A stretch of DNA of 64,000 bases from Ulota crispa (Eukaryota; Streptophyta; Bryopsida; Orthotrichales; Orthotrichaceae): the NCBI GenBank assembly GCA_963920765.1, contig OY987244.1:13456501-13520500 (forward strand). Direction: 5' to 3'. How positions within the stretch are numbered: position 1 is the first letter of the stretch; each line of letters opens with the position of its first letter. This document shows positions 1,761-52,976 of the stretch, one piece after another. The position numbers were made by a program, and so were the translations under genes. The notes under the pieces are model-generated. The model had not been told where the DNA came from, ran no database searches, and worked only from the letters and a program-made list of their open reading frames with translations.

Positions 1761-1977
1761 TTAACCCCTAAAGGGCCCTTGGGCTCTAGAGCTACGGTAC
1801 CAAATATAGTTCCAACTAATATTCAAAAGTTTGTATCAACTAGAAATTAAGTGTTACAACCATACATATTGAAGGGTTGTATGATGGATGCATCATTTTT
1901 TTTGGAAAGCCCTCATAGCAGCTCAAATACATCTGTACATATGGCCACAAAAGACTTTTGTGACGTTTAGGGGTTAA
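1761..1977. mobile_element. Short TTAA-flanked element (CCCCTAAA ends)
   Basis: Begins TTAACCCCTAAAGGGCCC and ends GACGTTTAGGGGTTAA, so TTAA lies at both edges (1761-1764 and 1974-1977) next to inverted CCCCTAAA/TTTAGGGG. It is about 217 bp, among the shortest of the family, with no coding capacity. Seen: ends and TTAA. Inferred: non-autonomous piggyBac-like MITE. Confidence 0.6.
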
Positions 1978-2151
1978 GGTAGGAGGCTCATAAATTGACC
2001 ATCTAGAGCATCACCACCCGGCCTCTACTTTGAGGCCAAGGTTGGCTTTGCAAATTGGAGGGCCATCCACTTTTCAGGCTACAGGGTTTCAAGAAAAACT
2101 ACTTAACAAGGTCTGACCTTGTTGAAATGTGACAAAATGTGATTAACTCTA

Positions 2152-3542
2152 GGGAAAATATCAAAAATAGGCCCGACAATCAGCCGTATTTTGAAAACAA
2201 GCCTAACAATTCAAAAATATCAAAAATAGGCCTCATCTAGGACTTGAGTTTTTGCTATTGATTTCCTTCAATTACAAAAACGGTTTATCCAAGAACTTTT
2301 TCCGTTATTTTCTCTATTCCATACTATAAATATTGAAAAATTAGATCTTCAATAGGCTTTTCAGCCAATGTTTACAGATTGCAAACGGTTCTTCCTCATT
2401 TCAATCGGCTAGCTTTGAACTAGCTGTCAGTTCTTCCCGGAGTGCCTCATCATATATAAAAAGTAGGCCTTGCAACTAAGGTGACCAAAAAAAATTGCAT
2501 GTTTGTTTATGGGAATTGATATGAGTACACCTAGGGTTTGATTTATGCACACCAAGAGAGGGGTAAATTTTAGATATTTACCATCACCAAGCTAAATTGG
2601 AATATTCAAAATTATATTTGGATTTAGAAACCTTGATTTAGATTAGAACCACAATGGAGGTTACAATTGAACTACGCCCAATGGAAAAGCTTAACTTTTT
2701 TTACAAGCAAGGGTAAATGTAATAATTTGGCCCCTAGCTAAGCTTTTCCATTGGGCATAGTTCAATTGTAACCTCCATTGTGGTTCTAATCTAAATCAAG
2801 GTTTCTAAATCCAAATATAATTTTGATTTTTCCAATTTAGCTTGGTGATGGTAAATATCTAAAATTTACCCCTCTCCTAGTGTGCATAAATCAAACCCCA
2901 GGTGTGCTCATATCAATTCCCATAAACAAACATGCAAATTTTCTTGATCACCTTAGTTGCAAGGCCTACTTTTTATATATGATGAGGCATTCCCTGACAA
3001 CTAGTTCAAAGCTAGCAACATCATATTTGTTGATTCGGGAAAAACAAGTGTCCCGTTTTGTACTCCACCTTAAACCCAAAATGTTACCTTAAACCAGATT
3101 CAAAGGTAGCAGATTCATTTTGAGCCACTAAGATTTTTTCCCTCGCAAATTCCTCCTCTCAAGTGAGGATACGTGTACAAAAAGAAACGCTAAGGAAGGT
3201 TTTAGGTGGTCACCTAAAACTTTCACTTCAAATTTTGAAAGTCCCAAAATGTACCATTTTTCCCAAATTAACAAATATGGTTTAGATAATTGAAATGAAG
3301 AAGAAGCGTTTGGAATCTGTAAACATTGGCTAAAAAGCCGATTGAGAATCTAATTTTTCAATATTTATAGTCTAGAATAGAGAAAATAACGGAAAAAGTT
3401 CCTTGATGAACAGGTTTGAGAATTGAAGGAAATTAACAGCAAAAACTCAAGTCCTAGATGAGGCCTATTTTTTATATTTCTGAATTTTCAGGCTTGTTTT
3501 TGAAATACGGCCGATTGTCGGGCCTATTTTTGATACTTTCCC
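2152..3542. mobile_element. MULE-like foldback element, 1.39 kb, 9-bp target duplication
   Basis: Almost the whole element is one inverted repeat, with the turn near 2690-2720. The ends are GGGAAAATATCAAAAATAGG and its complement (right end reads TTTTTGATACTTTCCC). The same nine bases, TTAACTCTA, stand immediately outside both ends (2143-2151 and 3543-3551). A 9-bp duplication is typical of Mutator-like elements. The inner arm (about 2500-2990) is also the core of repeats at 42176-42566 and, more decayed, at 49.82-50.76 kb. No transposase frame is present, so it is non-autonomous. Confidence 0.75.
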
Positions 3543-3629
3543 TTAACTCTAAAGAATGTACATGTGGCGATTATGAAGTGGACACTAACTTTTTAGAAAT
3601 TTCACCATGGGTTCCACTTCGGCTATTAC

Positions 3630-3957
3630 GGGGCTTCAAATGTAAAATCTGGCCTTCAAACTTCTCACCTCACAAGATCTCTGCTCACCAGCTAGTGAAT
3701 TGTTTTCATTCCCTTGCACGCGCAAAGTCTGAGACACTTGTGAGTTTGCAAAAGTTATTGCGAAAGAAGTTTTGGGGTTTGAAGACCCAGGTGCATGAAT
3801 CCCAGGAAGCCATGAAAGTGAGTTTCTGAAGTTCACTCCTTGCATGAATCACGTTAGGAGTGAAGTCCATAAGTGAGTCACGTCACGATTCATTAGTAAA
3901 TTCACAAAGGTGAATTGCGACGTGAGTCACCTGAAAAAGTTTAAGTTTGAAGCCCCT
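3630..3957. repeat. MITE-like repeat, GGGGCTTCAAA ends
   Basis: Begins GGGGCTTCAAATGTAAAATC and ends AAGTTTGAAGCCCC, an inverted match of about 11 bp. A longer relative occurs at 31553-32145 with the same order of internal words (AAAATCTGGCC, TTCTGAAGTTCACTCC). The open frame running across it (3458-3829) follows the repeat and not a gene. Target duplication not certain. Confidence 0.5.
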
Positions 3958-3999
3958 ATTGTAAATTTGAATATCAAAGATGTACCGTCATCAGACTCA

Positions 4000-4449
4000 T
4001 CTACTATCTATAAAAAAACTCATGTTCAACCTGTCTGTTTGGTCGTCACTTATTAGTTGGTCGTCACCTACTGGTCTTACCGCCTACATGGGGGACATGG
4101 GTGCATGAGGGACATGGGTGCATGAGGGACATGGGTGCATGGGGGACATGGGCGCATGGGGATCTACTATCTATAAAAAAAACTCACGTTCAACTTGTTT
4201 GTTTGGTTGTTACTTACAGGTCAGTCGTCACCTACTGATCTTACCGGCTACATGGGGGACATGGGCGCATGGGGGACATGGTTGCATGGGGATCTACTAT
4301 CTATAAAAAAACTCACATTTAACCTATCTATTTGGTCGTCACTTACTGGTTGGTTGTCACCTACCGGTCTTACCGGCTACATGGGGGACATGGGCGCATG
4401 GGGGACATGGACGCATGGGGGACATGGACGCCAATGCTTTTATTCCTAG
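4000..4449 (+). mobile_element. Helitron-like 5' ends in tandem with G-rich minisatellite
   Basis: Three head-to-tail units start with TCTACTATCTATAAAAAAAC at 4000, 4163 and 4293, each preceded by A. Each unit carries about 90 bases of unique sequence and then a CATGGGGGACATGGGYG minisatellite. The block ends CCTAGT (CTAG at 4446-4449, followed by T). Helitrons begin TC after a host A and end CTRR before a host T, so the termini fit; the usual 3' hairpin is weak here. No Rep/helicase frame is present. The open frames reading Met-Gly-Asp-Met-Gly-Ala-Trp are minisatellite translations. Related material lies at 36610-36912. Confidence 0.45.
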
Positions 4450-5455
4450 TGAAAGAAAGCCAGATTTTGTTTATGAAAAGCCAAGTTCTCTTTACCCTAA
4501 GGAATTAACATAGACTTGTAAAATTTTATCACCAAAATTTTTGTGGATGAAGTATGTAGATAGCCTAAAATCATGACACCATGTGGGCTATGTTGCTAGG
4601 TGTTAGTTTAGTGATATAAAAAATAATTGTGATTATGTCACCATGTGGCGACAACAAAAGACCTTCTAGAAAAATATGGCGCCAGCTATATGATCATATG
4701 GTCTGTTGCCTATTGGTTTGTCTTCTTTTCTCTTGCTTTGAAGTAGAGCAACCAAAGAAAAAATTAAGTGAAAGTGTATTGAAGAGGCCGATTTTATTTT
4801 TGAAAACTTAGAAAGGTTTGTTTAATTGCTTGTTGATTTCTATGTCTTGAGGATAGTGTTGTTAAATGCTTGATTTTGTTGTACAAGTTCTTTATTGTAA
4901 AGTGTTTCAAAGTTATTTCACCTTGCATGTTGTTGTATGGTGCTTAGAAGTTAATTTACCATACATTCAAATTTAGCTTTTAAATTTTGAATCTTCTATG
5001 CCTTGTACAGCAAAACTCCTCTAAACTAATATCCCCTAAACTAATATTTGGCATTCATAATACTACCCACCCCCTTCTCACACCACTATATGAACTAGTA
5101 ACTCCAGTCCTAAGTATATAAGTTTAAAAGGAGTTCTATTGTACCCAAAATTTTACTTTCTTAACTTGGGGTATATTTAAATTAGGATGTTGTCAAAATT
5201 CATTGTGTTTCTTGTGTTATGTAGCTACTTTCAATTAAATTATAATGCTTTGTTGTAGGAACTTGGTTGAGAAGAAAATTCTTGTGTTCCCTATATTAAG
5301 TTGTTAAATTAATGTGTGGAGCCAGATTTCTTCATCCCCAACAACCCTCATCGCCTAAGTATTTTGTGATGAAAAATACTTTAGAAGCCTAAAAATACAT
5401 GGTCTCTGCAAACATGGTGCCACCTTGGCTACTACCATACTTAATACAGAAAAAT
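4450..5455. other. AT-rich intergenic DNA, no gene seen
   Basis: No open frame with coding character, no RNA gene and no clear element boundary is visible. Confidence 0.5.
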
Positions 5456-5460
5456 GCTGA

Positions 5461-5641
5461 TGGACGCATGGGGACATGGGTGCATAGGGGACATGGGCGC
5501 ATGGGAGACATGAGGGCATGGGGGACATGGACACATAGGGGACATGGGCACATGGGAGACATGAGCTCATGGGGGACATGGATGCATGGGGACATGGACG
5601 CATGGGAGCCATGGGCACATGGGGGACATGAGCATGTGGGG
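5461..5641. repeat. CATGGGGGA minisatellite
   Basis: About 180 bases of alternating 8-9 base units (CATGGGGGA, CATGGGYGC, CATGGGAGA) related to the arrays at 4090-4435 and 36670-36890. A short outlier lies at 5919-5953. All frames stay open because the unit lacks stop codons on either strand, which explains the long shadow frames here. Runs of three to five Gs recur every 8-9 bases. Confidence 0.75.
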
Positions 5642-7913: not shown

Positions 7914-8150
7914 TTAACCCCTAAGTGCCTGGAGTTGTTTTATGGTTTAGGAGAAAATGGGGGTTTAATGGCCACTAGAGCTTGGAAAATTACATCCAAA
8001 AAAAGTGGCTGTAGGATTTGAAAAAGGACTACCTTCTCTGCTGATGGAGACTAGCCATGACTATTTTCACCGTACAAATCAAGAGAAAAAGTGAGATCAA
8101 GTTGTGATCCCCAACGACAGGATCTTGTTGCTGGGGCGTTTAAGGGTCAA
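7914..8150. mobile_element. Short TTAA-flanked element
   Basis: Left end TTAACCCCTAAGTGCC at 7914, right end GGGCGTTTAAGGGTCAA at 8150 (TTAA has become TCAA). About 237 bp, non-coding. The right edge abuts the AGGTAGG MITE that begins at 8150. Confidence 0.5.
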
Positions 8151-8642
8151 GGTAGGAGCACACATAACATTTAAACTAAGGGTTTTGAACATGACAATTA
8201 TTAATAAACAACTAGCAAATTATAGGATCCTATTAGGAACAGAAAAAAATGAGTTTGCCCTTTCAAAAGTATTATTTGGATACTGTATAGTAGAAGAAAA
8301 CTGCGTTGGAACCCACTAAATTATGTCATGTAGTTTATGTTGAGTTCTATGTTTCCAACCTAAAATTTTGTTGAACATCGCAAAATTTTGCATTGGAAAC
8401 ATGGAACTCAACATAAACTACATGACATAATTTAGTGGGTTCTAACGCGATTTTCTACTAGTGTGTGAGAATAAGCTCTGAATTTTTAAAGAGCAAACTG
8501 CCATTGCACCCGTATCCACTATTAAGATTTCATATTCACATGTTGTACATCCTTGTCATTACATCTATTCACTTCCACAAATTTTCCAAGATTTTAGAGG
8601 TGACGGTTATGGAGACACTGACGCTTATGGGTGTTCCTACCT
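8150..8642. mobile_element. TA-type MITE (AGGTAGGAGCAC ends) interrupted by a CACTA MITE
   Basis: Left end AGGTAGGAGCACACATAAC, right end TTATGGGTGTTCCTACCT. Removing the CACTA insertion at 8287-8463 leaves about 313 bp, the same size as the copies at 9116-9428, 36027-36331 and 38994-39308, and the internal words line up (AGGGTTTTGAA, AACTGCCATTG). Confidence 0.7.
8287..8463. mobile_element. CACTA-type foldback MITE nested in a TA MITE
   Basis: Hairpin of about 177 bp: TAGTAGAAGAAAACTGCG on the left pairs with CGCGATTTTCTACTAGTG on the right. TGT stands on both sides (8284-8286, 8464-8466), and the uninterrupted host copy near 39130 reads ATATTGTGAGAAT with a single TGT. A relative is at 53156-53290. 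Confidence 0.8.
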
Positions 8643-8714
8643 TCGGGACTTCCTAAATCCACTGCAATTTTTGCTAAATCTGTCACATCCACCCCATTGC
8701 ACCATGTTTAGAAG

Positions 8715-8968
8715 GGGGAATGCTATTTCATGAGAGGGGGTCCATGAGCCGTGAGCCGTGAGCAGGGATTTTTTGTTAAAATAATAGAATTTACCTATAA
8801 ATGTGTATGTAAGACCCTATTATTGTGCATTTTAAACTATTATCTCTTGAAAAACTTGTTGTGTTTTTAATTATTCCATTGATTTTGAGTTGAAACTCCA
8901 TTCCCGCTCACAGAATCTTGAATCCTTGCTCACGGCTCACCATTTTATGCTCACCAAATAGCGTTGTC
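8715..8968. mobile_element. MULE-like MITE with 11-bp flanking duplication
   Basis: ATGTTTAGAAG occurs just outside both ends (8704-8714 and 8969-8979), while the uninterrupted relative near 10194 has the corresponding sequence once. The ends are GGGAATGCTATTTCATGAG and the complement of GACAACGCTATTTGGTGAG. A diverged relative lies at 57170-57413. A 9-11 bp duplication suggests Mutator-like transposition. Confidence 0.65.
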
Positions 8969-9115
8969 ATGTTTAGAAGTTCCTTAAAGAAAAGAAGGGC
9001 AAATTTTGTATCTATTGAATGACTACTTAATGATACTCATAGATGCAATTCACAACTTCATTTTTTTTCCTTTCTTTGTCTACTTTTTTTCTTCTTCTTG
9101 CTTTTACTTGGTTTA

Positions 9116-9428
9116 AGGTATGTACATCCATAAGCACCATTGTCCCCATAACTGTCACCTCTAAATCTTGGAAAATCTATGGAAGTGAAAAGTTGTAATG
9201 ATAAGGATGTACAACATGTGAACATGAAATCTTAATAGAGGTTATGGGTGCAATGGCAATTTTCTCTTTAAAAATTCACAGCTTATTCTCATAGTATCCA
9301 AATAATACATTCAAAAGTGCAAACTCATTATTTTTCTATTCCTACTAAGATCCTATAATTTGCTAGCTACTTATTAATACTCATCATGTTCAAAACCCTT
9401 AGTTTGACGCTTATGGGTGTACATACCT
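9116..9428. mobile_element. TA-flanked MITE, 313 bp
   Basis: AGGTATGTACATCCATAAGC at the left and its complement at the right (GGGTGTACATACCT), with TA at 9114-9115 and 9429-9430. The right flank TTAA also serves as the insertion point of the next element. Confidence 0.75.
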
Positions 9429-10074
9429 TAACCCCTACAAGGAAATCATGGTTGAATCTACAAAAAGTTGACAAAGATTGTGACCTAATCTACAATATTC
9501 TATAGATTAGGTCACAATCTTTGTCAACTTTTTGTAGATTCAACCATGGTTTTCTTGCGCCCAAGGGGGTAAGGGCAAAACATAGATGCATTATAAAATG
9601 TTGCTTATGTAACTTTGATGAAGTTTGCTTCAAATGAGAAGAAAATAATCATGATATTTAGTAATTATCCATATAGTCAAACATTCAAAAAAAGTTTTGG
9701 ATTTTTATTTGATGAATTTAGAAGCATTTACGATTTAATATTCACCAAAATTACAAATTTTAGTCATAGATTTTAAAATTAGGTATGACTGGTTAAAAAA
9801 AGACATTCTATTGGAAATTTCAAAAATGCAATCTTTTCAAAGGAGAGAACATCATTAGTTTCCCAAAATAGTGAATTTTATAACACTAGCAAATATTGAA
9901 GTGTTTGTTTTTGAAAAATTCTCCTTGATGGAGTTTAACTTGGATTGACATAATTCAAGTTGGGTTGGAAAGTAAACTTGATTTCCGATTTAAATATATT
10001 TTTTAATTTAATTTAATTTTATCATCTTGGGCAGCCCACGCCAAAAAATGGTCAATTGAGCACTTAAGGGTTAA
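9428..10074. mobile_element. TTAA-flanked element, relative of the 43.36-44.82 kb copy
   Basis: TTAA at 9428-9431 and 10071-10074, ends CCCCTACAAGG and CACTTAAGGG. Apart from a palindrome inserted close to the left end, the body is homologous in inverted orientation to 43357-44821 (shared words include GCAAAACATAGATGCATTAT and AACTTGGATTGACAT). It provides an uninterrupted version of the site where another family member inserted at 43657. Confidence 0.75.
9438..9557. repeat. Near-perfect 120-bp palindrome inside an element end
   Basis: Two arms of about 54 bases (left contains TTGAATCTACAAAAAGTTGA) pair almost perfectly around a short centre, TACAATATTCTA. It is absent from the equivalent position of the related copy near 44800, so it is a later insertion. 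Probably a tiny foldback MITE. Confidence 0.75.
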
Positions 10075-23308: not shown

Positions 23309-24230
23309 TTAACCCCTAAAGGCCCAAGGAGCCCATTTTGGGCTTTATGAGAACTCGGGCAGGCTCTATTGACTTCATAATTCAGAATTTTTTCATGAAA
23401 TTTTTAGGATGGATGCTACTCATCATAATCTACTTGCAAAGCTTTATTTCATGCCATTCCGATAAGTAATGCAAAAGTTATAAGGTTTTTTCAATTTCAA
23501 TGTCAAATCGGGCAGCAAAAATTATATTTTAAAATTTTTATTTTTATTTTTATAGAATTTTATAAATTGATACCTACTCAAAAAAAGTTGAATCACTCTA
23601 TTCCAAATAATGAGGTAAGAGTTAAAAGGAGTTTTCTTTTGCGGGCAACAAAGGTAGGAAGAGGGTAGAAAAAATGTATAAAGTTATCTTTTACTCTCAA
23701 TTTTGAAAATTTTCTAATGAAAATGAAAAATGAAGTTACTAATTGTCTTTTAGAGCATTCTTACCATTGGGATTAACAATTTTCAAATTCTTCCAAAACT
23801 TATTAGCATATTAGTTATATCTTTCATTCATCAATACCTTTCACTTTACAATTTTTGTAAAAATGAATCCAAAGTCTTTTTTGGTTAGATTTTTTTAATA
23901 TATGCTTTCAACCAATTTTCCAACATATCGCAAAAATTGCACAAGAAATATAACATACATGTTTTTCTCTAAAAAGTTTGAAAAACAAAACTTCACCTTC
24001 TGGAAGGACTAGAAAAGCCTACATTTTGAGGTTTAGGCACATTGATCTTGCAATTGGTGGGGATATTCATTCTGAAATTTTGGGACAATGTACTTGTGCA
24101 AGTCAACCAAAGGATCCTACGGTTGGATTTGTGAAAAAATAAGTTTCAATGAAGATTTTGACCTTGGTTTGGGGACTAGTATTTTGAAGCAATTTTGGGC
24201 CTCTAAACACAAAAGAATTTTAGGGGTTAA
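23309..24230 (+). mobile_element. 922-bp TTAA-flanked element, copy 1 of an inverted pair
   Basis: Begins TTAACCCCTAAAGGCCCAAG and ends GAATTTTAGGGGTTAA, with TTAA at 23309-23312 and 24227-24230. It is non-coding. It matches the reverse complement of 26115-27036 base for base except for a handful of substitutions noticed by eye; the lengths are identical. Both copies therefore come from a recent event. Confidence 0.85.
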
Positions 24231-24716
24231 ATCATCAATAATGAGGAGCTGGCAGCATGCACAAATATGGTACTTTTTGCATGGAATTGGGTGTCCAAAG
24301 AACAACATCTAAAGTAGAGGTTTTGCATACATTTGGTGGATGATATATTGATTCTAGAATGCATGTATCACTAGCACAAAGACTAAAACAATGAAGTGCC
24401 GGCAATATTCTCAAACTATGCACAAATATGGTACTTGTTGCATGGAATGTGGGTATCCAAACAACAACATCAAAACTAGAGTTTTTGCATACATTTTGTG
24501 AATGACATATTGATTTTAGAATGCATATGTCACTAGCACAAAGACTAAAATAATGAGAAACTGGTAGCATTCACAAATTATGCATAAAGATGATACTTGT
24601 TGCATGGATTTTGGGTGCCCAAACATTGACATCAAAACTAGAAATTTTGCATATATTTAGTAGATAATATATTGATTCTACAATGCATGTATCACTAGCA
24701 CAAAGACTAAAAATAC
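24231..24716. repeat. Tandem repeat, three units of about 160 bp
   Basis: Units start near 24238, 24391 and 24551. Each contains ATGCACAAATATGGTACTT or a variant, then TTTTGCATACATTT, and ends CACTAGCACAAAGACTAAAA. Divergence between units indicates an old array. It lies immediately inside the 922-bp copy. Confidence 0.75.
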
Positions 24717-24737
24717 AGTGAATCCTTTTAAATGAAG

Positions 24738-26114: not shown

Positions 26115-27036
26115 TTAACCCCTAAAATTCTTTTGTGTTTAGAGGCCCAAAATTGCTTCAAAATACTAGTCCCCAAACCAAGGTCAAAATCTTCATTGAA
26201 ACTTATTTTTTCACAAATCCAACCGTAGGATCCTTTGGTTGACTTGCACAAGTACATTGTCCCAAAATTTCAGAATGAATATCCCCACCAATTGCAAGAT
26301 CAATGTGCCTAAACCTCAAAATGTAGGCTTTTCTAGTCCTTCCAGAAGGTGAAGTTTTGTTTTTCAAACTTTTTAGAGAAAAACATGTATGTTATATTTC
26401 TTGTGCAATTTTTGCGATATGTTGGAAAATTGGTTGAAAGCATATATTAAAAAAATCTAACCAAAAAAGACTTTGGATTCATTTTTACAAAAATTGTAAA
26501 GTGAAAGGTATTGATGAATGAAAGATATAACTAATATGCTAATAAGTTTTGGAAGAATTTGAAAATTGTTAATCCCAATGGTAAGAATGCTCTAAAAGAC
26601 AATTAGTAACTTCATTTTTCATTTTCATTAGAAAATTTTCAAAATTGAGAGTAAAAGATAACTTTATACATTTTTTCTACCCTCTTCCTACCTTTGTTGC
26701 CCGCAAAAGAAAACTCCTTTTAACTCTTACCTCATTATTTGGAATAGAGTGATTCAACTTTTTTTGAGTAGGTATCAATTTATAAAATTCTATAAAAATA
26801 AAAATAAAAATTTTAAAATATAATTTTTGCTGCCCAATTTGACATTGGAATTGAAAAAACCTTATAACTTTTGCATTACTTATCAGAATGGCATGAAATA
26901 AAGCTTTGCAAGTAGATTATGATGAGTAGCATCCATCCTAAAAATTTCATGAAAAAATTCTGAATTATGAAGTCAATAGAGCCTGCCCGAGTTCTCATAA
27001 AGCCCAAAATGGGCTCCTTGGGCCTTTAGGGGTTAA
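26115..27036 (-). mobile_element. 922-bp TTAA-flanked element, copy 2 (inverted)
   Basis: Reverse complement of copy 1 at 23309-24230, with its own TTAA on both sides (26115-26118, 27033-27036). The two copies face each other across 1.88 kb, so the locus can form a hairpin or invert by recombination. Confidence 0.85.
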
Positions 27037-32614: not shown

Positions 32615-32634
32615 CTAAGGGGCGTTTAACCCCT

Positions 32635-33363
32635 CAAGGCCCAAGCAGCCTTTTTTACGTTGTCTACGGATTTTGGGCAAGGTACTACAAATGAGTTTTG
32701 CATTTGTATTTTTTAAAATTTTCACACATGAAGTACCCAAGGAGTAGCCATAAGGCCCAACAATTTTCATGACTTTTGACTACATGGTTCAAAAGTTATT
32801 GCATGATTTGTTGTTTTTTTTGTTCGCTAGGGTAGCCTGGGTAGCTCAAAAACTTATTTAAAAATGACATTTCAAGTTTGGTTTTTTTTATTGGTTCTTT
32901 AGATCTATATATAGGTGGGAAGCTTTGAATCATTTAGTTTCCATTAATGAGATGAAAGTTATGAGAAGTTTTAGTTTTTGGGTAGATGTGGAGTCTCTCA
33001 AAACCATACCTACCCGCAAACTAAAACTTCTCATAACTTTCATTTCATTAATGGAAATTGAATGATTCAAAGCTTACTACCTATATATAGATCTAAAGAA
33101 CCAATTTAAAAAAACCAAACTTGAAATGTCATTTTTAAATAAGTTTTTGAGCTACCTGGGCTGCCTTGACAAACAAAGAAAACAATAGATCATGCAATAA
33201 CTTTTGAACCATGTAGTCAAAAGTCATGAAAATTGTTGGGCCTTATGGCTACTCCTTGGGTACTTCATGTGTGAAAATTTTAAAAAATACAAATGCAAAA
33301 CTCATTTGTAGTACCTTGCCCAAAATTTGTAGACAACATAAAAAAGGTTGCTTGGGCCTTGAG
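32635..33363. mobile_element. Foldback derivative of the TTAA family, right end lost
   Basis: Left end TTAACCCCTCAAGGCCCAAG; the right arm stops at CTTGGGCCTTGAG without the final GGGGTTAA. The arms are about 360 bp each and nearly complementary, turning near 33000. The interior words GAAGCTTTGAATCATT and ATGAGATGAAAGTTATGAG are shared with the foldbacks at 34771 and 49954. Confidence 0.7.
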
Positions 33364-33600
33364 AACACTGTGTCTCACATCCCAAGTCCCACCAAATTTG
33401 AGAAGTTGATTGGTGTAGAGTCAAAAGTTGGGACTTGGCATTTCACACTATGTTCCAAGTCCCACGTCTGTGTTGCTTATACGGCAACACATTTTGCAAG
33501 TTTTGGTGTCAAAGCAAGTAGGACTTCACTCAAGGTTTGGGTTGTTCATTTTGTTAAACCCAACTTTTAACCCAAGTTCCATCAAAATTCTTGTATATGA
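33364..33600. repeat. Dispersed repeat, second copy near 41590-41785
   Basis: The two stretches share TTGGCATTTCACACTATGTT, GGCAACACATTTTG and GTTAAACCCAACTTT-like words in the same order. Family and boundaries are unknown; the coding-like frames across 33226-33634 follow the repeat. Confidence 0.45.
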
Positions 33601-34770: not shown

Positions 34771-35454
34771 CCCTAAAGGACTGAGGGCCCGCAAGGGGAT
34801 AAATGGGATTTTGGGCATGTACCTATGGCTAAACTACTTTGGGTGATTTTCTAAAACTTTTATTGAAAGTGAGGAATTCAAAAATCTACATGGGCTTGTA
34901 ATTTTTCTTCATTCCAACATTTATTGAAGAAGTCAAAAATGAAAATTTAGAAAATGATTCTCCCCAGGTAGCCAAAACTTCTTTTAATTTTTTCAAATAA
35001 AATTCTGAAATGGGTTCTTTAGACTTATATAGACATGGGGAGCTTTGAATCATTCAATTCCAATAGATGAGATGAAAGTTATGAGAAGTTTTGTTTGCAA
35101 GTAGGTGTAGTTTCTCTAAAACTTCTCATAATTTTCATCTCATCTATCAAAATTGAATGATTCAAAGCTCCCCACCTCTATATAAGTCTAAAGAACCCAT
35201 TTCAGAATTTTATTTGAAAAAAAATGCAATTTTTAAGAAATTTTTGGCTACTTGGGGAACATTATTTTCTAGATTTTCATTTTTAACTTCTTCAATAAAT
35301 GTTGGAATGAAGAAAAAATTACATTCCCACATAGATCTTTGAATTCCTCACCTGCAATAAAAGTTTTAGAAAATCACGCAAAGTAGTTTGGCCATGGGTA
35401 CATGCCCAATATCCCATTTGTCCCCCAAAGGGACAATGGTCCTTTAGGGGTTAA
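34771..35454. mobile_element. Foldback derivative of the TTAA family
   Basis: The left arm starts CCCTAAAGGACTGAGGGCCC (outermost bases decayed) and the right arm ends GGTCCTTTAGGGGTTAA at 35454. Both arms correspond to the same, left half of the full-length elements at 40227 and 43657, joined head to head near 35110 (GGGCATGTACCTATGGCTAA on one side, its complement on the other). Confidence 0.75.
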
Positions 35455-40226: not shown

Positions 40227-41155
40227 TTAACCCCTAAAGGCCCAATTGTCCCCCGGGGGATAATTGAGATTTTGGGCATGTACCTATAACTAATCTAGTT
40301 TTTGTGATTTTTTTAAAGGTGGAGAATTTCAAAACCTACCCGAGAATCAAATTTTTGTCATTCTAACATTTGACAAAGAAGTTATGCAAGAATTTCTGCT
40401 GCCCACGAGAAGGAGGGCAATCCGGGCAGCCCAAAAACTTCTTAAACATTTGTGTTTTCTAAAAATAGAAATCTGAAATTGATTCTTTAGATTTTTTTAT
40501 GTGTGGGAAGCTTTGAATCGTTCAACTTCAATCGATGAGATGGAAGTTATGAGATGTTTTGGTTTGTGGGCAGTTATGGATTCTCTACTCTAAAATAAAC
40601 TTTGAAGTCCTTTATTTTCCACAATATTTAATATTTTGGAAAAAAAACTAAACCTAAGGAAGTAGATTGTTTATCACAACATTATAACAGTTGGAATTTT
40701 CATTTTTTCATTTTAATAATTAAATTCTTATCAATTTAGTGATTTGACTCATTCTCTACTTCTTTTTACTTGTTGTTTTTTTTCTCATATGTTGTATAGT
40801 TCTAATTGATTTGAAAATTCTCCCACGCATACCTAACTTGGTCAGCTACATGGAAAAAATAAACCTCAACTTTGTGTAGAGTAATTTTTTTCATGTGAGT
40901 GTGGACAAAGGCTTCTAAATTTTTTTGGACAGCACAAAAAGAAACCTTTTTTTCACTTTAGATGTAAATATCTCCCTCCTCTCCATCTAGAATGACCTAA
41001 TTTTTTCTCACAAGTACCTCTTCTAGTCTAAGGCAAGATCCTATGGTTGGATTTGTAAAACAAACTTTATTTCCTACTTTTTTACTCATTCCCCCCAAAG
41101 TGGCAGTTAACAATGACTTTCACTAGAGAAAACTACTTGGGCCTTTAGGGCTTGA
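40227..41155. mobile_element. Full-length TTAA-family element (929 bp)
   Basis: Starts TTAACCCCTAAAGGCCCAAT and ends GGGCCTTTAGGGCTTGA (expected GGGGTTAA, so the right end has drifted). Interior words match 43657-44591 and, inverted, 46873-47806: GGGCATGTACCTAT, GGGAAGCTTTGAATC, CTAAACCTAAGGAAGTAGAT and CACAAGTACCTCTTCTAG. A ten-base match GACCATTTAA overlaps both edges (40221 and 41154), which is discussed in the findings. Confidence 0.75.
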
Positions 41156-41826: not shown

Positions 41827-42885
41827 TTAACCCCCAAATGCCCAAACGACTAGATTTGGGTCTTTATAAAACTTTGAAGATGAACAAAACCTTAACAAAT
41901 CACTATTTTTAGTATTTTTTTCAATATGAGTTTGTTTTGAAGTCTATTTTTGACATCAAAAATCTAATTTTGAAAATAAAATTTGATGATTTTTCTAGTC
42001 AAGATTTTGTACAAGGGTGTCTACTACAATCTTGAGTTTTCTAATGTTGGAAGATCTTGAAAATGAGCCTCAAATACACTAGAGCTTGGAGAAAAATCCA
42101 CTCTAGAAATCCATTTAACCCCTAAATCCCCGAGTGTCCCCTTAGGGGACAAATGAGATTTCGGGGTTAAAAAAGGGAATTGATATATGCACACTGGGGG
42201 TTTGATATTTGCACACGGGGGGAGTAAAATTGAGGGTAAAATTTAGATATTTACCATTAACAAGATAAATTTGGAAGTTTTGAATTCATATTTGAATTTA
42301 GAGACTTTGATTTAACCTAAAACCACAAAAGAGGTTACAATTGAACAACATCTAGTGGAAAAGCTTAGATTTTTTTTACAAACAAGGGTTATAGTAATAA
42401 TCCCCCCCTAGCTAAGCTTGTCTAGTAGGCATTGTTCAATTGTAACCTCCTTTGCGGTTCTAAACTAAATCAAGATCTCTAAATCCAAATCCAAATTCAA
42501 AATTTTCAAATTTAACTTGTTGATGATAAATATCTAATTTTTGCCATCCCCTAGTGTGATTTAAGTTAAACATGTAATGACCTTAGACCTCATATTTTTT
42601 TGGTGACCAACTTTTTAGATTTGACATGTGAATGAGAATTAGAAGACTTCAAGTCACTTTTGCAATTTTACACCCTCATGTTCAAACTTTATAATTTTTC
42701 AAACTATAAGTAATATTGTTGTATTTTCTTTTCCCATGTAATCTTTGACATGTTCAGTTTAAATTTGTATGGTTACAATTGAAAAAAACTTGATGAAATT
42801 TATGAAAAGTTTGATTGATTGTTCAGTTTCATGAAAATTCCAAGAAGCTCAGAACTCAGGTAGGCTTTAGGCATTTAGAGATTAA
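41827..42885. mobile_element. TTAA-family element interrupted by another repeat
   Basis: Begins TTAACCCCCAAATGCCCAA and ends GGCATTTAGAGATTAA. The parts before 42115 and after 42564 align with the uninterrupted 654-bp copy at 50859-51512 (shared AATCACTATTTTTGGTGATT-like words, AAACATGTAATGACCTTA and CAATTGAAAAAAACTTGATG). Confidence 0.75.
42115..42564. mobile_element. Nested insertion: short TTAA piece plus foldback core
   Basis: 42115-42170 begins TTAACCCCTAAATCCCC and ends CGGGGTTAA. It is followed by a foldback (42176-42566) whose arms match the inner part of 2152-3542 (GAATTGATATATGCACACT, TAGATATTTACCAT, GAGGTTACAATTGAACAAC). TTAA lies at 42115 and again at 42561. The uninterrupted element at 50859 lacks this segment. 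Its interior TGATTTAACCTAAAACC (42310) is the empty version of the site used at 49954. Confidence 0.65.
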
Positions 42886-43356: not shown

Positions 43357-44821
43357 TTAATTCCTAAATGCCCATTTGACCATTTTTGGTCTTTGCCCAA
43401 GATGGAACAAAATATTTTTTGAAAAAATAAAAAATACCGTCTTATAGGAAAGCAAGTCTACTTTCCAACCCAAATCAAACCATGTCAATCCAAGTTAAAC
43501 TCCAACAAAGAGAATTTTTCAAAGACACACATTTCAATATTTGCTAATGTTATAAGATTTACAATTTCAAGATACTAGTGATGTTCTCTCCTTCAAAAAT
43601 ATTGCAATTTTGAGTTTTAGAGTAGAATGTCTATTTTTAACCAATCATACCAAGTTTTAACCCCTAAAGGACAATTGCCCCTTTTGGGGACAATTGGGAT
43701 TTTGGGTATGTACCTATGGCTAAACTACTTTGTGTAATTTTTGAAACTTTTATAGAAGATGGGGAATTCAAAAATCTATGTGGGCATCTAATTTTTTCCT
43801 CATTCTAACATTTGACAAAGAAGTTATGCAAGAATTTCTACAACTCGGGGGAGGGAGGGCAATCCAGGCAGCCCAAAAACTTCTTTAAAAATTGTGTTTT
43901 TTTAATAAAAAAATCTGAAATTGGTTCTTTAGATTTTTTTTAGGTATGGGAAGCTTTGAATCACTCCATTTCAATCAACAAGATGAAAATTATGAGATGT
44001 TTTAGTTTGTGAGCAGTTACGGATCCTCTACTCTAAAAAAACTTTGAAGTCCTTTATTTTCCGTATTTTTCAATATTTTGAAAAAAAAAACTAAACCTAA
44101 GGAAGTAGATTGTTTATTAAAACATTATCATTGTTGGATTTTGCATTTTTCATTTTAATAATTAAATTCTTAACAATTTTGTGATTTGACTTATTCTCTA
44201 CTTCTTTTTACTTACTATTTTTTTCCCATGTGTTGTATAGTTCCAATTGATTTGAAAATATTCCCACACATGCCTAACTTAGTCTTCTACACAAAAAATT
44301 TAACCTCAACTTTGTGTAGAACAAATTTTTCATTTAAACGTGGTCAAAGGCTTTTGAATTTTTTGAATAGAACAAAAAGAAACCTTTTTTTTCACTTCAG
44401 ATGTAAATGTTTCCCTCCTCTCCATCTAGAATGACCTCATATTTTTCCCACAAGTACCTCTTCTAGTTTAAGGCAAGATCCTACGGTCAAATTTTCCAAA
44501 AAGGAAAAAAACCTACCTTCTTACTCATCCCCTAGAAGTGGCAGTTTTTAGTGATTTTGACATAAAAAGGGCTTGGTCCTTTAGGGGTTAAATTCTACTT
44601 ATAAAATTTGTAATTTTGATGATTATTTAATGGTAAATGCTTCTGAATTCATCAAATAAGAGTCTAAAACTTTTTTTGAATGTTTGTCCCTATGGATAAT
44701 CACTAAATAGATCATGATTTGTGTTTTGTTTTTTTGAAACAAAACTTCATTGAAGATAAAAAAACATCATTTTATAATGCATCTATGTTTTGCCCTTATC
44801 CCCTTGGGCATTTAAGGGTTA
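43357..44821. mobile_element. TTAA-family element, third level of the nest
   Basis: TTAATTCCTAAATGCCCATT at the left and GGGCATTTAAGGGTTAG at the right. Removing it restores GATG-TTAA-CATAGATATC, matching GATGTCAACATAAACATC in the empty copy near 54910. The body is homologous in inverted orientation to 9428-10074. Confidence 0.75.
43657..44591. mobile_element. TTAA-family full-length element, innermost level
   Basis: TTAACCCCTAAAGGACAATT at the left and GGTCCTTTAGGGGTTAA at the right, 935 bp. The host reads CATACCAAGTTTTAA before it and TTAAATTCTACTTATAAAAT after it. The empty host copy (reverse strand near 9770) reads CATACCTAATTTTAAAATCT with a single run there, so one TTAA was duplicated. 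The interior matches 40227-41155. Confidence 0.85.
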
Positions 44822-45520: not shown

Positions 45521-47850
45521 GAGAATTGCTAAATCCACCACAGTTTTTGCTAAATCCACCACTACATCATGTTTAGGAATTTCATAAAGAAGAGAAGAAC
45601 AAATTTTGTATTTATTGGATGATCATATAACAATTATGCAAGGTTGTTACTTCTCACAAGATCTAGCTATATGACAACATTGGCGGATGCAAAGAACGGA
45701 CAACACGTTGTTGTGATGTAAATCACGGCATGTAGTAAATATGTGAAATTTGATTAAATTATAATTTGTGTGAGGTGTTGTACTATTTTCCCTTTACTTG
45801 CAGTTTACCATTGATTAACAAGGTTTTCCCGGATAAGGTTTTAATGAGGAAATAACCTTTTAGAAGTGTTATTTAACTGGAATCACTAGAGTTTATTTTA
45901 GTGAATGGATTCATAAACCAATGGTATAGAAGGACTTTTACTTTGGAGTTTATTTTAGGTAAAGTATTTCATAGACCAATGGTAGAGGAGGACTTTTACT
46001 TTATATCATCTCTCTTTAGTATATAGATGAAACCCTATTTGGAAGAAGGTGTCTTTTTTAGACCAATTTATTATTCCGTACTTGTCCTTTTGAGAACATT
46101 TATTATCCCATATATGAATTATATTTATGTTCTTAGAAACCACTTATTATTTGATATATGATTATGTTTGTTGAAACCAAATTTTATTTCTACACCTTGA
46201 AATATATTTTATTTTGTCTTGTTCACTTATGTTTTGATCATCTTGGAATGTTATTTTGAGAAGGATTGTGTGCATACTATCTTTCACTTGATTTTTTGAG
46301 ACAATCGCAGCAAGACACCTTGCGTGTTTCCAAAGCGCACTCCTCTCTACCCAACAATGTACAGATGTGTCCGTCCTCTCGTGTTCTTAGGGCATTTTTA
46401 GGGTTTTTGACCTTGAATAGAAATAATCAAATTATTGTTTTTCATTTTTGGTATTTGATATGGCTTTCAATCCACGTTTTGACTTCATGTTGGCAACAAC
46501 AAATGTCACCAGCATGTACAAAGTAATTTTTCTCTGTCATTTTTCATCAATTTTTGAAGTCAACTATGAGTTGACTACATTGAACAAACTTTGAGCACAA
46601 TTGGACACTTTGAATATACAAGCAAGTGGACGGACAGGCGGTCCAATGTGACAACCATGCAATTATGGCACACATATCTATTTTAGGATTATACATGATG
46701 TAAATTATGGAAGTTAATTCAGGTAAAAGAAAAAAGAAAGCAAAGAGTGAACAAAAAAAAAGAATGAAGGGAAGAGTGGATAAAGAAGAGAAAACAAAGG
46801 GGAATAGTAAATTACATTTGCTATCATTGTTAAATGGTCATCCTATAACTACAAAAAAATTCCTTCTTTTCTTTAACCCCTAAATGATCAAGCCCCTTTT
46901 TTGTGAAAATTACTAGAAACTGCCACTTTTGGGCAATGTGTAGAAAAGTAGGATTTTTTTTTTTTTTGAAAATCCAGCCATAGGATCTTTGCCCTAGACT
47001 ATGGGAGGTACTTGTGGGAAAAAAATTAGCTCATTTCAGATGGTGAAGACTGAGATATCAACATTTGAAGTGAAGAAAAAAAGTTTTTTTCCCTACTGCC
47101 CAAAATTTTCAGAAGTCTTTGACCACGGTTACTGAAAAAAAATTGCTCTACACAAAATTGAGGTTTATTTTATCCACATAAAAGACCAGGTTAGGTATAT
47201 GTGGGAGAATTTTCAAATGAATTGGAGGTATAGAACATACTTCAAATACTATTTGAATAATAGAAGGTCCTAAAATTTGCAAGTACACAAGGCAAAATTG
47301 AAAAGATTTATGTAAAATTTAGAATTTAGAATTACACTCTAAAAGGTGAAAGGCTCTTAGCCCACTACAATCAAGGGAAATATATAAAACTAAATAAATG
47401 TCCAAACCGCTTAAAAAATGAAAATACCAAATTTTATAAGGGGCAAAAGGAATGGAGGGTTGGGAGTCCCATACCTACCAGCAAACTTCTCACTCATCAA
47501 TCAAAACTGAATGATTCAAAGCTTCCCACATAGATATAAATCTAAAGAACCAATTTCAGATTTTTATTTTTTTAAAAGCAATTTAAAAAAAAAATTGGGC
47601 TGCCCACCCTCCCCCATTTTCTAAAAATTCATGCATAACTTCTTCAATAAATGTTGGGATGAAGAAAAAATTTGACGCCCACAAGGATCTTTGAAATCCC
47701 CACCTTCAACAAAAATTTTAAAAATTCACACAAAGTAGTTTAGACATAAGTACATACCCAAAATCCCATTTGTCTCCGAAGGGGACATTGGTCCTGTAGG
47801 GGTTGAGGAAGTCCCAAACGTGGCACAGTGCGCTGGATTTAGCAATTCCC
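45521..47850. repeat. Old host repeat with GAATTGCTAAATCCACC ends
   Basis: The left end (GAATTGCTAAATCCACCACA...CATGTTTAGGAATTTC) and the complement of the right end (GGGAATTGCTAAATCCAG) match the ends of 8646-10228. A 61-bp tandem duplication lies at about 45887-46005 (GACTTTTACTTT words). The TTAA-family element at 46873-47806 is nested near the right end. Boundaries are approximate. Confidence 0.45.
46873..47806 (-). mobile_element. Full-length TTAA-family element, inverted orientation
   Basis: Left TTAACCCCTAAATGATCAAG, right GGTCCTGTAGGGGTTGA; 934 bp. Removing it restores TTTTCTTTAAGGAAGTCC, matching CTTTAAGGAACTTCTAAAC on the reverse strand near 8985, so a single TTAA was the target. 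The interior is the reverse of 40227-41155 and 43657-44591. Confidence 0.8.
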
Positions 47851-48599: not shown

Positions 48600-49504
48600 T
48601 TAACCCTTTAGTGATGATCAACCATTTGGAGGGGCCACCTCAAATTTTCACTATACGGAGTGCAAAACACATTCAAGGACAAAATCTGTGTTTCTAAAAT
48701 CAAATCAGACTGGACATATCAAAGCTATAAACTTTGGTACCATGAATATAAAAAAAAGTTTGATCTATCGAAACAATTCCACATGAGGATTGTGAGAAGC
48801 TTGATGATCCAAAAAAACTTGTTGTGCAAAAGTGTGAGACAATCTAACAAATTAGTGTCAATCGTGCAATTGAAACTTTTGATAGTGGTGAGATTTGTAG
48901 AGGCTATTGCCCCATTCTAGGTTACTACACTTCTAAAAAATACAAAATTTGAGTCAATTTGTGCATTTCACGGCATGATTTGTGAAATTGAGCATTGGAA
49001 GAATACAAACATGGCCACACATATACGGTTGAATACATCATGCATGGAACATGTTTCCACAAAATCCGATTGGTCAATATCATCTACATTGGGTGTCATT
49101 TGAGGTACAAGGTCCCACATTTAGCATTGCAAACCTTTGGAGCCTAGGATTTCATGGAATATGCAATGTTGCAGCTGAAATATGCCACAAGTAGAACTTC
49201 TAAATAAGCCATGTATCTTTTGCACAACTATTAGAAAGTTAGCACTGGATACTTTGGGTGCAATATGTGGACTTTGGGGCCACGTCATGGTTGCACTGAA
49301 TTAGTACTTCATTTGTTACACTCGCTTGAGATTCCCATCTTCATATGTAAAACACGCATAACTACCATGTTTCTTTATGCCTTGCTTTGGAATTTGTTCC
49401 AGTGGGAGCACAAGCTAAACCCCCAACTCCGTTACATTCTGTGTTTTTGCAAATTAAATAGAACAAAGATGACAAGGTGGTCAACGGAGCACTAAAGGGT
49501 TAAT
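48600..49504. mobile_element. TTAA-flanked element with CCCTTTAGTG ends
   Basis: TTAACCCTTTAGTG at 48600 and CACTAAAGGGTTAA ending at 49504: a 10-bp perfect inverted repeat plus a partial match further in (GATCAACCA against GTTGACCA). 905 bp. It is a distinct subfamily. Three short plus-strand frames inside show no transposase motif. Confidence 0.7.
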
Positions 49505-49953
49505 GTACTCTAATGAAGGGTCATGCCTTAATTGATTCCCCTTGGAATAAGTTACCAACAAATGGCATGCCCAAATTGTCCCTTCAACCAAAATTCTACT
49601 AAATCCTTCATACCTTTTGAATTGTGGATTTGATTTCAGTATATTTTATATCCTATTGTAGCCCTTGCAAAAACCCAATTTTAGAACAAATAAATAAATA
49701 AGACAACAAAAAGTCCCAGCAATATAAGCCAAAATCCATTTTGTCTCCCATAGGGACAATGGTCCTTTAGAGGTTAATCATCAACTCTTTGTTGCTTATG
49801 TAGAATTGGCTAGGGCTAAATGACATGCCATTTGGTGGGGCCGAGGGGAAAAATCTAATCTTTTCTACTCAACAAAAATTACAAGATTTTAAATACTTAC
49901 CATTCAAAGAATTTAAAAAATTTGAATTCTTGTTTGAATTCAAAAACCTTCAT
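49505..49953. other. Intergenic DNA with a family fragment
   Basis: 49735-49777 (CCCATAGGGACAATGGTCC...TTAA) is the right end of a TTAA-family element whose remainder is missing. From about 49820 the sequence is a decayed copy of the foldback core seen at 42176, interrupted by the next element. Confidence 0.4.
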
Positions 49954-50681
49954 TTAACCCCTAAAGGACCACTTGTCCCTACAGGGGACAAATGAAATAT
50001 TGGGCATGTACTTATGGCTAAACTACTTTTTGCAAATTTTTGAAACTTTTATGGAAGATGGAGAATTCATAGACCTGTGTGGGCATCTAATTTTTACCTC
50101 ATTATGAAATTTATTGAAGAAGTCAAAAACAAATTTATGAGAATTTTAGTTCAGTAGGCAATCCAAAAACTTCTTTAAAAATTGCATTTTTAAAAAATTA
50201 ATATTTGAGGTTAGTTTGTTAGATTTACGTATATGTGGAAAGCTTTGAATCATTCAATTCTAATTAATGAGATAAAAGTTATGAGAAGTTTTAGTTTGCT
50301 TGTAGGCATAGTTTTGAGATTTTCCACACCTACCCGCAAACTAAAACTTCTCATAACTTTCATCTCATCAATTAGAATTGAATGATTCAAAGCTTCCCAC
50401 ATATATGTAAGTCTAACAAACTAACCTCAAATTTTTATTTTTAAAAAATGCAATTTTTAAAGAAGTTTTTGGGCTGCCCACCAAACTAAAATTCTCATAA
50501 ATTTGTTTTTGACTTCTTCAATAAATGTTGGAATGAGGTAAAAATTAGATGCCCGGACAAATTTTTGAATTCCCCATCTTCCACAAAAATTTCAAAAAAA
50601 TACACAAAGTAGTTTAGCCATAAGTACATGCCCAAAATCCCATTTGTCCCCTATAGGGACAAGTGGTCCTTTAGGGGTTAA
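49954..50681. mobile_element. Foldback derivative of the TTAA family, nested
   Basis: TTAACCCCTAAAGGACCACT and GGTCCTTTAGGGGTTAA; 728 bp. The arms are complementary over almost their full length, turning near 50320. Removing it gives ACCTTCAT-TTAA-CCTAGAACC, matching ACTTTGAT-TTAA-CCTAAAACC at 42305-42325. It is the clearest TTAA duplication in the window. Confidence 0.85.
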
Positions 50682-50858
50682 CCTAGAACCGCAAAGGATA
50701 ACCAATAATACCAACTCCAACGTACGGGGCAAATTATTACTTTCATACTTGTTGGTAAAAAAGCTGAGATTTTCCACTCCACTCCACAATGCTATCTAAC
50801 CCGAGCCTGTGGAATGTGGTGTACAACCGTCTGTTTTAGACCATATTGTTATGGTCAA

Positions 50859-51512
50859 TTAACCCCTAAATGCCCAAGGCACCCAATTTGGGTGTTTGCA
50901 AAACTTCAAAAACAAATTAAACCTGATCAAATCACTATTTTTGGTGATTTTTTTTGAACACAAGTTTGTTTTGAAGTCTATTTTCAACACCAAAAATCTG
51001 ATTTAAAAAATGAATATTTATGATTTTTCTACTCAAGATTTTGTACAAGGGTGTCCCTTGCAATCTTGAGTTTTCTAGTGTTGGAAGATCCTAAAAATGA
51101 CCCTTAAATACACTAGAGCTTGGAGAAAAATCCGCATTTGCAATCCATTTAAAAAAAAATACATGAGTAGATTTTGGAAGCTGTAAATTGAATGAAGTTA
51201 AACATGTAATGACCTTAAACCTCATATTTCTTTGATGACCAACTTTTTAGATTTGACATGTGAAATGAGGATTAGAAAACTTCAAGTCACTTTTGCAATT
51301 TTAACACCCTCATGTTCAAACATTATAATCTTTCAAACTATAAGTGATATTGTTGTGTTTTCTTTTTTTGTGTAATCTCTAACATGTCAAGTTTAAATTT
51401 GTACGGTTACAATTGAAAAAAACTTGATGAGATTTATGAAAAGGTTGGTTGATTGTTCACTTTCCTGAAAATGCCAAGAAGTTCAGAAAGGCCTTGGGCA
51501 TTTAGGGGTTAA
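50859..51512. mobile_element. TTAA-family element, uninterrupted 654-bp copy
   Basis: TTAACCCCTAAATGCCCAAG at the left, CTTGGGCATTTAGGGGTTAA at the right. The terminal inverted repeat is at least 18 bp and perfect. It is the empty reference for 41827-42885. Confidence 0.85.
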
Positions 51513-52192
51513 AAGCTGTTTCAAGGCCTAACGGAAGGATTCCTTGAAGATGACATGTGACTCCTTTTATTTATCCAAAAATTTATTTTTATGTCACATG
51601 TGGGTCTAGTTTGGCTCTACCTTTGTATTGTTTTTAGGATTTCCATGATCATTAGTGGACTTAGGTTTGGTTTAGACTAGCTACTGGACAAAACACAAAA
51701 AACACAAAAAGTGGAACTCTGTCGAGTCTTTCATCCTCCAAAGTACTTCTACAATATTCAAGATTGTTGGAGAAAAAATTGCTTTAAAGTAAGAGTGTTC
51801 ATCTATGGAACAAGTTTGGAGCCACCCTCATAACAAGCCTCAAAATTCACTATCTTGTCCTTTGATGTGGCTATATTGGTTGGTGACATGGCAAGGTAAA
51901 ACCAACAAACCCTAAGTGTGAACACTTCACCAGACAAAACTAATATTTCAACCAATGAGGTTTGAGATAATTTTCTCCTGTTGCTAATCTAAACCAGACC
52001 TTATTATCCCTAAACTTTTGTAATATAATAGACCTTCTTATTTATATAATAAACTCTAGAACACAAATCCATAAAAAATTAAACTTTACGCTTCATTAGG
52101 TTCCTTTTAGCAATTGAAAAATGTATTTGTAATCTTCAAATCTTTCTACTACCAAGTGGTCTGATAATTCTTAAAAATATATTTAATCCTTG
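51513..52192. other. AT-rich intergenic DNA, no gene seen
   Basis: Nothing recognised. Confidence 0.5.
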
Positions 52193-52976
52193 AGTGCCCT
52201 AGCGCCTCAAACTGGGACGCCCAAAATTAGACTTTGTAAAGAATCTTGTCCACATCAAGGGTACTGGCCAGGAACTGTACTTGGGTCAAGGGTACGGTAC
52301 TACTCTCATGCCACATAGTGGACAATGGGATTCTGCCACTTGTACAAGCGTAAATTGTGCAAGTCAAGTATGACAATAATACGCCAAAATGTCATTTTGT
52401 GCGGTTTAGGGTTTGAACGCAAGGATAGAGACCACAAAATATTGCCGGTTCCATACCATAAGGGGTGTTTTGGCACAAATACATTAGACTAGAGAAGGGT
52501 TTTGCAACTATACAATCAAGAGCCGTGCTCTTGTGGAGGTCAAGGCTATACTTATCCCCATCTATTGTCCACCATGCCATTTGAGCCTTGCAACTTTGGG
52601 CCTCTCAAAAAGCACCTTGTGGATGTCAAAACATCACCGAATTTGACAACAAGCAAGATACTTGTAAATTGCACCCCCGCCTAAATTTCATCAAAAAGAG
52701 CCTTCTTTGAGGCATGAATTTTTGCGTCCAAAGCCACAAAACCCCCAAAATTGGTTGGTTGCCAAATAGTCAACTGTACTTTGACTATTATAGTCTACAA
52801 AATGGTGCGGTCAAAAGTTTTGCAAATTTCTAGTTGAGTGCATCAAGGACCCTTTTTGCTATTTCAGTGTTGAATCCTCCCCAATCTAAGTTCCCAGCTC
52901 AGGGCATATAATGTTTTCAAGCATGGTCACTCCTGGCCTCATTTTCTTGTTTTCACTCAAGGCGCTTAGGGGTTAA
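52193..52976. mobile_element. TTAA-flanked element with CCCCTAAGCGCC-type ends
   Basis: TTAATCCTTGAGTGCCCTAG at the left; the complement of the right end reads TTAACCCCTAAGCGCCTTGA. TTAA at both edges, 784 bp. The ends are partly drifted, so it is an older copy. Confidence 0.6.

Follow-up and report, generated by a model that had tools for sequence, protein, structure and literature searches.

Introduction

The piggyBac element is known as a tool transposon and belongs to a group seen mainly in animals and protists; in land plants the group is little described. Our study concerns short repeats flanked by TTAA in a 64,000-base stretch of DNA (C3:13456501-13520500, referred to here in its entirety as the window) within a genome of 275 Mb in 157 contigs. 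A sequence-only reading of the window had assigned these repeats to one piggyBac-like family in a plant region. The piggyBac-like assignment was borne out, while the one family gave way to several transposase lineages, and the host is better described as a moss.

The best-known relatives are the Trichoplusia ni piggyBac element, of about 2.5 kb, and piggyBat (PDB 9c0f). The moss elements share with both a homologous DDE domain in which the catalytic motifs align, a TTAA target, ends beginning CCC/CCY and a C-terminal Cys/His motif. They differ from T. ni piggyBac in a length of 5.2-5.7 kb where both ends are firm, in an upstream domain at most of the loci read and in having a plant host. We consider it about 95 % probable that the window repeats are non-autonomous transposons of the piggyBac superfamily (~0.2-1 kb) that resemble miniature inverted-repeat transposable elements (MITEs), reside in the moss nuclear genome and are moved in trans by larger DDE_Tnp_1_7 elements with the same ends. 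The host, the scale, the diversity of lineages and an apparent extra domain set this case apart.

Going by the available excerpts of the papers concerned, piggyBac MITEs have been described from animals, in Helicoverpa (PMC9033116) and as the Pokey derivative mPok in Daphnia (PMC4912750). The moss repeats are likewise short non-coding derivatives presumed to be mobilized in trans, but they have tens of thousands of termini, a plant genome and several transposase clades at once. Among plants, the excerpts give a table for the fern Ceratopteris with 1,230 PiggyBac fragments, amounting to 0.00 % of the assembly (PMC6890710), an entry for PiggyBac in a list of angiosperm MITE groups, which are told apart by terminal repeat and target-site duplication (PMC10004981), and reviews that name PiggyBac among the superfamilies (PMC10794571, PMC10004981). 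The Ceratopteris and angiosperm entries share the superfamily name with the moss elements, but stand in these excerpts without a described transposase gene, termini or target-site statistics (PMC6890710, PMC10004981). A Physcomitrella paper, in its excerpt, treats animal piggyBac as a tool as yet untried there (PMC5505980); the excerpts of three further papers merely cite piggyBac (PMC5253467), concern an oomycete (PMC8204020) or use only the word 'piggybacking' (PMC10619864). Among titles and the opening lines of abstracts, with subscription papers and preprints outside the scope, no description of a native piggyBac in a bryophyte was found, and prior reports are possible. The word piggyBac occurs 0 times in a moss-genome review (PMC13120521). 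For one moss genome outside this analysis, the excerpt reports terminal inverted repeat (TIR) elements at 29 %, with CACTA the largest group, as annotated with EDTA and RepeatModeler2 (PMC11704416).

TTAA-flanked elements in the window and across the genome

Our study found seven window elements, of 217 to 935 bp, with a perfect TTAA on both sides (Table 1); the remaining copies are one-ended, nested or decayed, and several elements are long fold-backs. The pattern of about 16 copies with TTAA on both sides that had been proposed is therefore real, but its count was overstated. Thirteen of the 16 proposed coordinates start exactly with TTAA, whereas 32635 lies 9 bases inside an element starting at 32626, and the copies placed at 34771 and 52193 have no left TTAA but carry one at their right ends (35454 and 52976). 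The 12 mapped elements, some of which have decayed ends, cover 10,165 of the 64,000 bases (16 %), for which 'dominates' was strong wording.

The motif TTAACCCCTAA occurs 18 times on the two strands of the window against 0.07 expected, and the looser TTAACCC 33 times against 10.4 expected (30 first-order Markov resamples in each case). Genome-wide, TTAACCCCTAA was counted 34,662 times, compared to 231 for its reversed control, and TTAACCCYTNAR 60,560 times, compared to 1,925, which implies tens of thousands of termini. With 23 TTAACCCYTNAR termini, where the genome averages 14.1 per 64 kb, the window represents a dense sample of a genome-wide feature.

The target was quantified using the 17-mer CCCCTAAATGCCCAAGG, the end of the element at 50859-51512, which was found 2,520 times in the genome (reversed control, 0). 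TTAA immediately preceded it in 2,118 of these places (84 %) and in 86 of the first 100 listed. Within those 100 places, neighbouring termini less than 1 kb apart formed 19 convergent pairs, with lengths near 640 and 920 bp, two divergent pairs and no same-strand pairs. TTAA was present on both sides of 14 convergent pairs, on one side of three and on neither side of two; the seven paired ends without it read GTAA, TTGA, CTAA, TTAG, TTAT, ATAA and TTGA, so that all 38 paired ends are TTAA or one substitution away.

Paralogous sites representing the state before insertion, rather than excisions, were compared with the filled ones. Both flanks of the element at 23309-24230 are joined by a single TTAA at locus L027 on another contig (86 % over 403 bp). 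The insertion site of 43657-44591 has an uninterrupted paralog with one TTAA elsewhere in the window (Table 1) and a relative with TTGA at L020; a relative of 48600-49503 at L018, with TGGA at the site and a gapped alignment, adds weak support. No duplication longer than TTAA was seen at the paralogous empty sites compared. Single-TTAA empty sites and 84 % TTAA termini are at odds with the 3-bp TWA duplication of PIF/Harbinger and the 2-bp TA of Tc1/mariner, and agree with the TTAA flanks that the sequence-only reading had predicted genome-wide for piggyBac: one TTAA per side, next to terminal inverted repeats that begin with CCC/CCY. The element ends resemble CCCTAAA, the telomere unit of plants. 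Interstitial telomere repeats were ruled out, as the terminus studied is mostly single or in convergent pairs and adjoins TTAA.

Transposase genes

That no window copy encodes a transposase, as had been claimed, was confirmed as far as recognisable transposases go. None of 120 listed matches to PF13843 (DDE_Tnp_1_7) lies inside the window, and tblastn of the window with 20 transposase domains gave chance matches only (E 0.22 or worse); as a positive control, the same domains were run against each other's loci, and every one of the 380 ordered pairs gave a match. The autonomous-size partner that had been expected elsewhere was found in those PF13843 matches (best E 1.3e-73; 116 of 528 first-look candidates scored), most of which, as listed, carry in-frame stops. 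Twenty of the 120 loci were read with about 4 kb on each side.

In a Pfam search of open frames, PF13843 was the sole family found, in seven of the eight frames tested. The open frame of L011 matches PDB 6x67 at 4.1e-20 and piggyBat (9c0f) at 5.8e-17; 6x67, labelled only 'Transposase' in the database, and 6x68 are presumably the T. ni piggyBac transposase. The motifs T[VIM]DE, DN[YF]F and GVDxxDQ are conserved around three aspartates, as in the DDD triad of piggyBac, with catalytic substitutions in several copies (for example N at the third site in L011, at the second in L018, and at the first and second in L023). A C-terminal CxxC...C..C...H motif was found by a loose regular expression at 17 of the 20 loci, three with a stop inside and two, L012 and L013, near-identical. 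This motif is zinc-finger-like and, at motif level, would correspond to the Cys-rich, zinc-binding domain of piggyBac.

A tree of the 20 DDE domains revealed at least five clades. Domestication was considered for the transposases of L009 and L016, where stops are few and paired ends are absent within 4 kb, but the frame of L009 appears to change at the start of the DDE domain and L016 may contain an intron. A viral source was sought by scanning IMG/VR with an alignment (A1), which gave 41 pattern matches and no relatives.

Ties between transposases and terminal repeats

In clades A and C, the transposase-bearing units start and stop at TTAACCCC ends, within 3 bp, so that the gene lies inside the repeats. 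In clade A, L019 and L020 are alignable exactly from TTAA to TTAA (1578-6807 and 1494-6801) and have the ends TTAACCCCTTGAGG/TTAACTCCTTGAGG. In clade C, homology between L013 and L024 begins 3 bp outside the TTAACCCCTAAATGCC-type ends and stops exactly at them; L012 shares the right TTAACCCCTAAATGCC-type end with both, its outermost left bases being gone. The prediction of matching ends on a piggyBac transposase thus held for clades C (L012, L013 and L024) and A (L019 and L020), and is provisional for two other end types: by terminal-repeat pairing, the CCCTTTAGTG type was given to clade E (L011, pair score 10) and the CCCCTAAGCGCC type to clade D (L026). The four copies in which both ends are firm span 5.2-5.7 kb, and the rest 5.0-7.0 kb.

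Pairing of terminal repeats was also scored across loci. A score of at least 12 was reached by 13 of the 20 loci and by 2.2 % of 1,000 shuffled resamples, a control that is too lenient because shuffling removes the MITEs that fill the flanks. In a cross-locus control the same score was reached in 101 of 380 pairings (27 %), and the excess of 13 in 20 stays (binomial 4e-4), although the assignment at any single locus is uncertain. Given this background, the assignment of ends rested on homology boundaries, which were effective for clades A and C only.

Several observations weigh against our explanation of the repeats. Stops interrupt most of the listed transposase matches, and the 20 loci read had been picked for few stops or a high score. 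Copies in clades B, D and E are too diverged, their DNA homology fading inside the claimed elements, whose ends are unconfirmed, and homology between L010 and L026 reappears solely in MITEs outside the claimed elements. Terminal-repeat pairing is a weak test, because the flanks are full of MITE ends: seven of the 20 loci scored under 12, and for two of the 13 that reached it, L012 and L027, the best pair combines the ends of separate insertions or is of a non-CCC type. The near-identity of L012 and L013, described below, could be explained by gene conversion. Finally, beyond the terminal repeat the window MITEs have little in common with L013 and L024 of clade C, so that parent-derivative relations are drawn by ends only.

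As a mechanism, we propose that DDE_Tnp_1_7 transposases from larger elements with the same CCCY... terminal inverted repeats would mobilize the MITEs in trans. The transposase would bind the terminal repeats, excise the element as other piggyBac elements do, and join it to a TTAA, leaving one TTAA per side. By analogy, the hairpin and precise-excision chemistry of piggyBac would apply here as well. Which transposase moved which MITE, and the ends of the three further clades, are likewise presumptive.

A refinement of this explanation that we regard as somewhat more likely than not, judging from sequence comparison, is that several piggyBac lineages exist side by side, each of which would mobilize only MITEs with its own ends. 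The firm ends of clades A and C differ, several end types occur within the window, and ends matched more often when both loci belonged to one clade (24 of 44) than when they came from different clades (77 of 336). Conversely, the outermost TTAA CCCY is shared, and the other end types, which agree with the clades, were assigned by hand.

The age of the closest copies is a separate matter. The elements at 23309-24230 and 26115-27036 are 100 % identical over 922 bp, including both TTAA, and lie inverted, 1.9 kb apart, in unrelated flanks. L012 and L013 share 99.3 % identity across 5,233 bp, with five mismatches and one gap opening, and lie about 14.5 kb apart, also inverted; their right flanks differ directly after TTAA, and L012 is without the outermost 17 bases of its left end, TTAA included. 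For both of these neighbouring pairs, gene conversion competes with recent transposition as an explanation, and for the window pair we hold conversion of two older insertions and a new insertion to be evenly balanced. Nearby inverted repeats are prone to gene conversion, and 39 other near-full-length copies were just 91-93 % identical to the query (40 scored of 1,196 candidates); on the other side, an identity that spans the element and both TTAA, between unrelated flanks, is what a new insertion would also give.

Among the copies scored, five pairs of near-full-length copies are separated by no more than 15 kb, and four of these pairs are inverted, a hint of local hopping or of gene conversion.

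A very improbable reading is that the MITEs come from a different superfamily that targets TTAA (Kolobok-like), with the piggyBac transposases as unrelated bystanders. In its favour, the window MITEs encode no transposase and the pairing test has its 27 % cross-locus background; it was set aside on the fit of ends and transposase to piggyBac, without a Kolobok profile search. Against it, the clade A and C transposase units are themselves bounded by TTAACCCC ends, and the clade C end CCCCTAAATGCC is also that of the window element at 50859-51512 and of the 2,520 genome termini, which largely refutes it for that end type.

An upstream domain of about 95 residues

Our study revealed an additional stretch of about 95 residues that is common to upstream open frames of different clades (for example L019 compared to L009, E 7e-11). 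A profile from four seeds detected seven further loci at E <1e-3 in its first round and reached 16 of the 20 loci after iteration, with L015, L016 and L028 leaning on the iteration; the iterated profile did not find the domain in L012, L013, L024 or L027. The final matches are all on the coding strand and upstream of the DDE domain, and in L019 and L020 they fall within the firm element ends. When the genome was searched using the L009 copy, 41 matches were obtained; for 26 of them, a listed DDE match follows on the same strand at a distance of 1.5-2.9 kb, and six of these 26 belong to the 20 loci already read. In the controls, no DDE match was counted on the wrong side, nor any on the opposite strand (chance ~0.001 each). 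The 15 unpaired matches include three of the four closest relatives of the L009 query (56-69 % identical); this may reflect that 116 of 528 DDE candidates were scored, and stand-alone copies of the domain are possible among them.

In Pfam, NCBIfam and PDB the domain has no convincing counterpart, the best E values being 0.16, 0.059 and 0.058, respectively. We infer that the domain is an N-terminal extension of the same protein, spliced to the DDE domain. It offers a new handle on the possible regulation or targeting of such transposases.

Implications for moss genomes

Tens of thousands of piggyBac ends, together with large coding elements, would revise which DNA transposons shape land-plant genomes, and the remodelling of plant genomes by precise TTAA cut-and-paste becomes testable. 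To our knowledge, the TIR module of EDTA has no piggyBac class, and moss transposon annotation lacking such a class may have a blind spot. We tentatively suggest, at slightly less than even odds, that mosses hold a distinct, long-resident piggyBac branch with an extra N-terminal domain of unknown fold, which diversified into lineages, each with ends of its own, and grew into one of the major groups of DNA transposons in the genome; in published moss annotations, pipelines that lack a piggyBac class may have placed such elements in CACTA or elsewhere.

Host markers

The host is best read, from PsaB, as a moss or close bryophyte. PsaB, encoded on the 112.5-kb contig C157 that we regard as the plastid genome, scored 1681 bits with 7ksq, 6l35 and 8htu and 1643 with 9lut, compared to about 1600 for the next chains and about 1509 for chains taken for green algae. 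A nuclear LHCII protein scored 458 bits with 8htu_U and 457 with 7xqp_a, the next light-harvesting complex (LHC) entry of ordinary length reaching 437 and the long 9vfj entry coming first at 521. We take 7ksq, 6l35, 7xqp and 8htu to be from Physcomitrium patens.

Two observations on LHC sequences were made alongside. At the nuclear locus L045 (C3:10255500-10259000), a 494-residue open frame fuses an LHC-like part, for which 9vfj chains are the sole matches to reach E 1e-40, to a part that by eye resembles ccsA (plastid cytochrome c biogenesis). The 33-kb contig C82 contains several short LHC exons and is possibly algal.

Features of the window

Table 1. Elements and related sites mapped in the 64,000-base window
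Feature	Coordinates	Strand	Observations
217-bp non-autonomous element	1761..1977	.	TTAA both sides; ends CCCCTAAA
Possible composite	7914..10074	.	Bounds TTAACCCCTAAGTGC and TTAACCCTTAAGTGC; other repeats inside; pairing of ends uncertain
Paralogous empty site for 43657-44591	9577..9974	-	Single TTAA; 83 % over 404 bp
922-bp element	23309..24230	+	TTAA both sides; single-TTAA empty site in L027, different contig
Second copy of 23309-24230	26115..27036	-	100 % identical, inverted; TTAA both sides; different flanks
Fold-back element	32626..33368	.	256-bp arms, 95 % complementary; left TTAACCCCTCAAGG; right decayed
Element	34771..35454	.	Right TTAA kept; left TTAA decayed to GTCA
927-bp element	40227..41153	.	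Left TTAACCCCTAAAGG; right decayed
Element	41827..42885	.	Ends CCCCCAAATGCCC / CTCTAAATGCC; right variant TTAATC; interrupted by 42115-42170
56-bp miniature	42115..42170	.	TTAA at both ends; sole genome match at <=3 mismatches
Older element, host of the 43657-44591 insertion	43357..44821	.	CCTAAATGCCC type ends, decayed
935-bp element	43657..44591	.	TTAA both sides; lies within 43357-44821; relatives lacking the insertion at 9577-9974 (TTAA) and L020 (TTGA)
Element	46873..47806	.	Left TTAACCCCTAAATG; right TCAACCCCTACAGG, one substitution in TTAA
904-bp element	48600..49503	.	TTAA both sides; CCCTTTAGTG ends, like ends provisionally given to clade E
728-bp fold-back	49954..50681	.	TTAA both sides; 353-bp arms, 90 % complementary
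654-bp element	50859..51512	.	TTAA both sides; ends identical over 22 bases, TTAA among them (CCCCTAAATGCCCAAGG...); end type as in L013/L024 (clade C)
Fragment	52193..52976	.	Right end CCCCTAAGCGCC with TTAA, like ends provisionally given to clade D; left boundary unconfirmed

The 56-bp miniature was considered as a smallest MITE family and rejected, as it has only one genome match at <=3 mismatches and a similar stretch in L028 continues differently. Three 162-bp tandem units at 24288-24773 stand beside the element at 23309, and related sequence is also present in L027. Elsewhere in the window, 17-bp tandem repeats of the CATGGGGGACATGGGYG type are clustered at 4053-4455 and 5449-5659, and a 53-bp tandem array at 59144-59461 has units that contain TTAACCC and is not a transposon end. 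An open frame at 30467-31039 appears serpin-like by eye.

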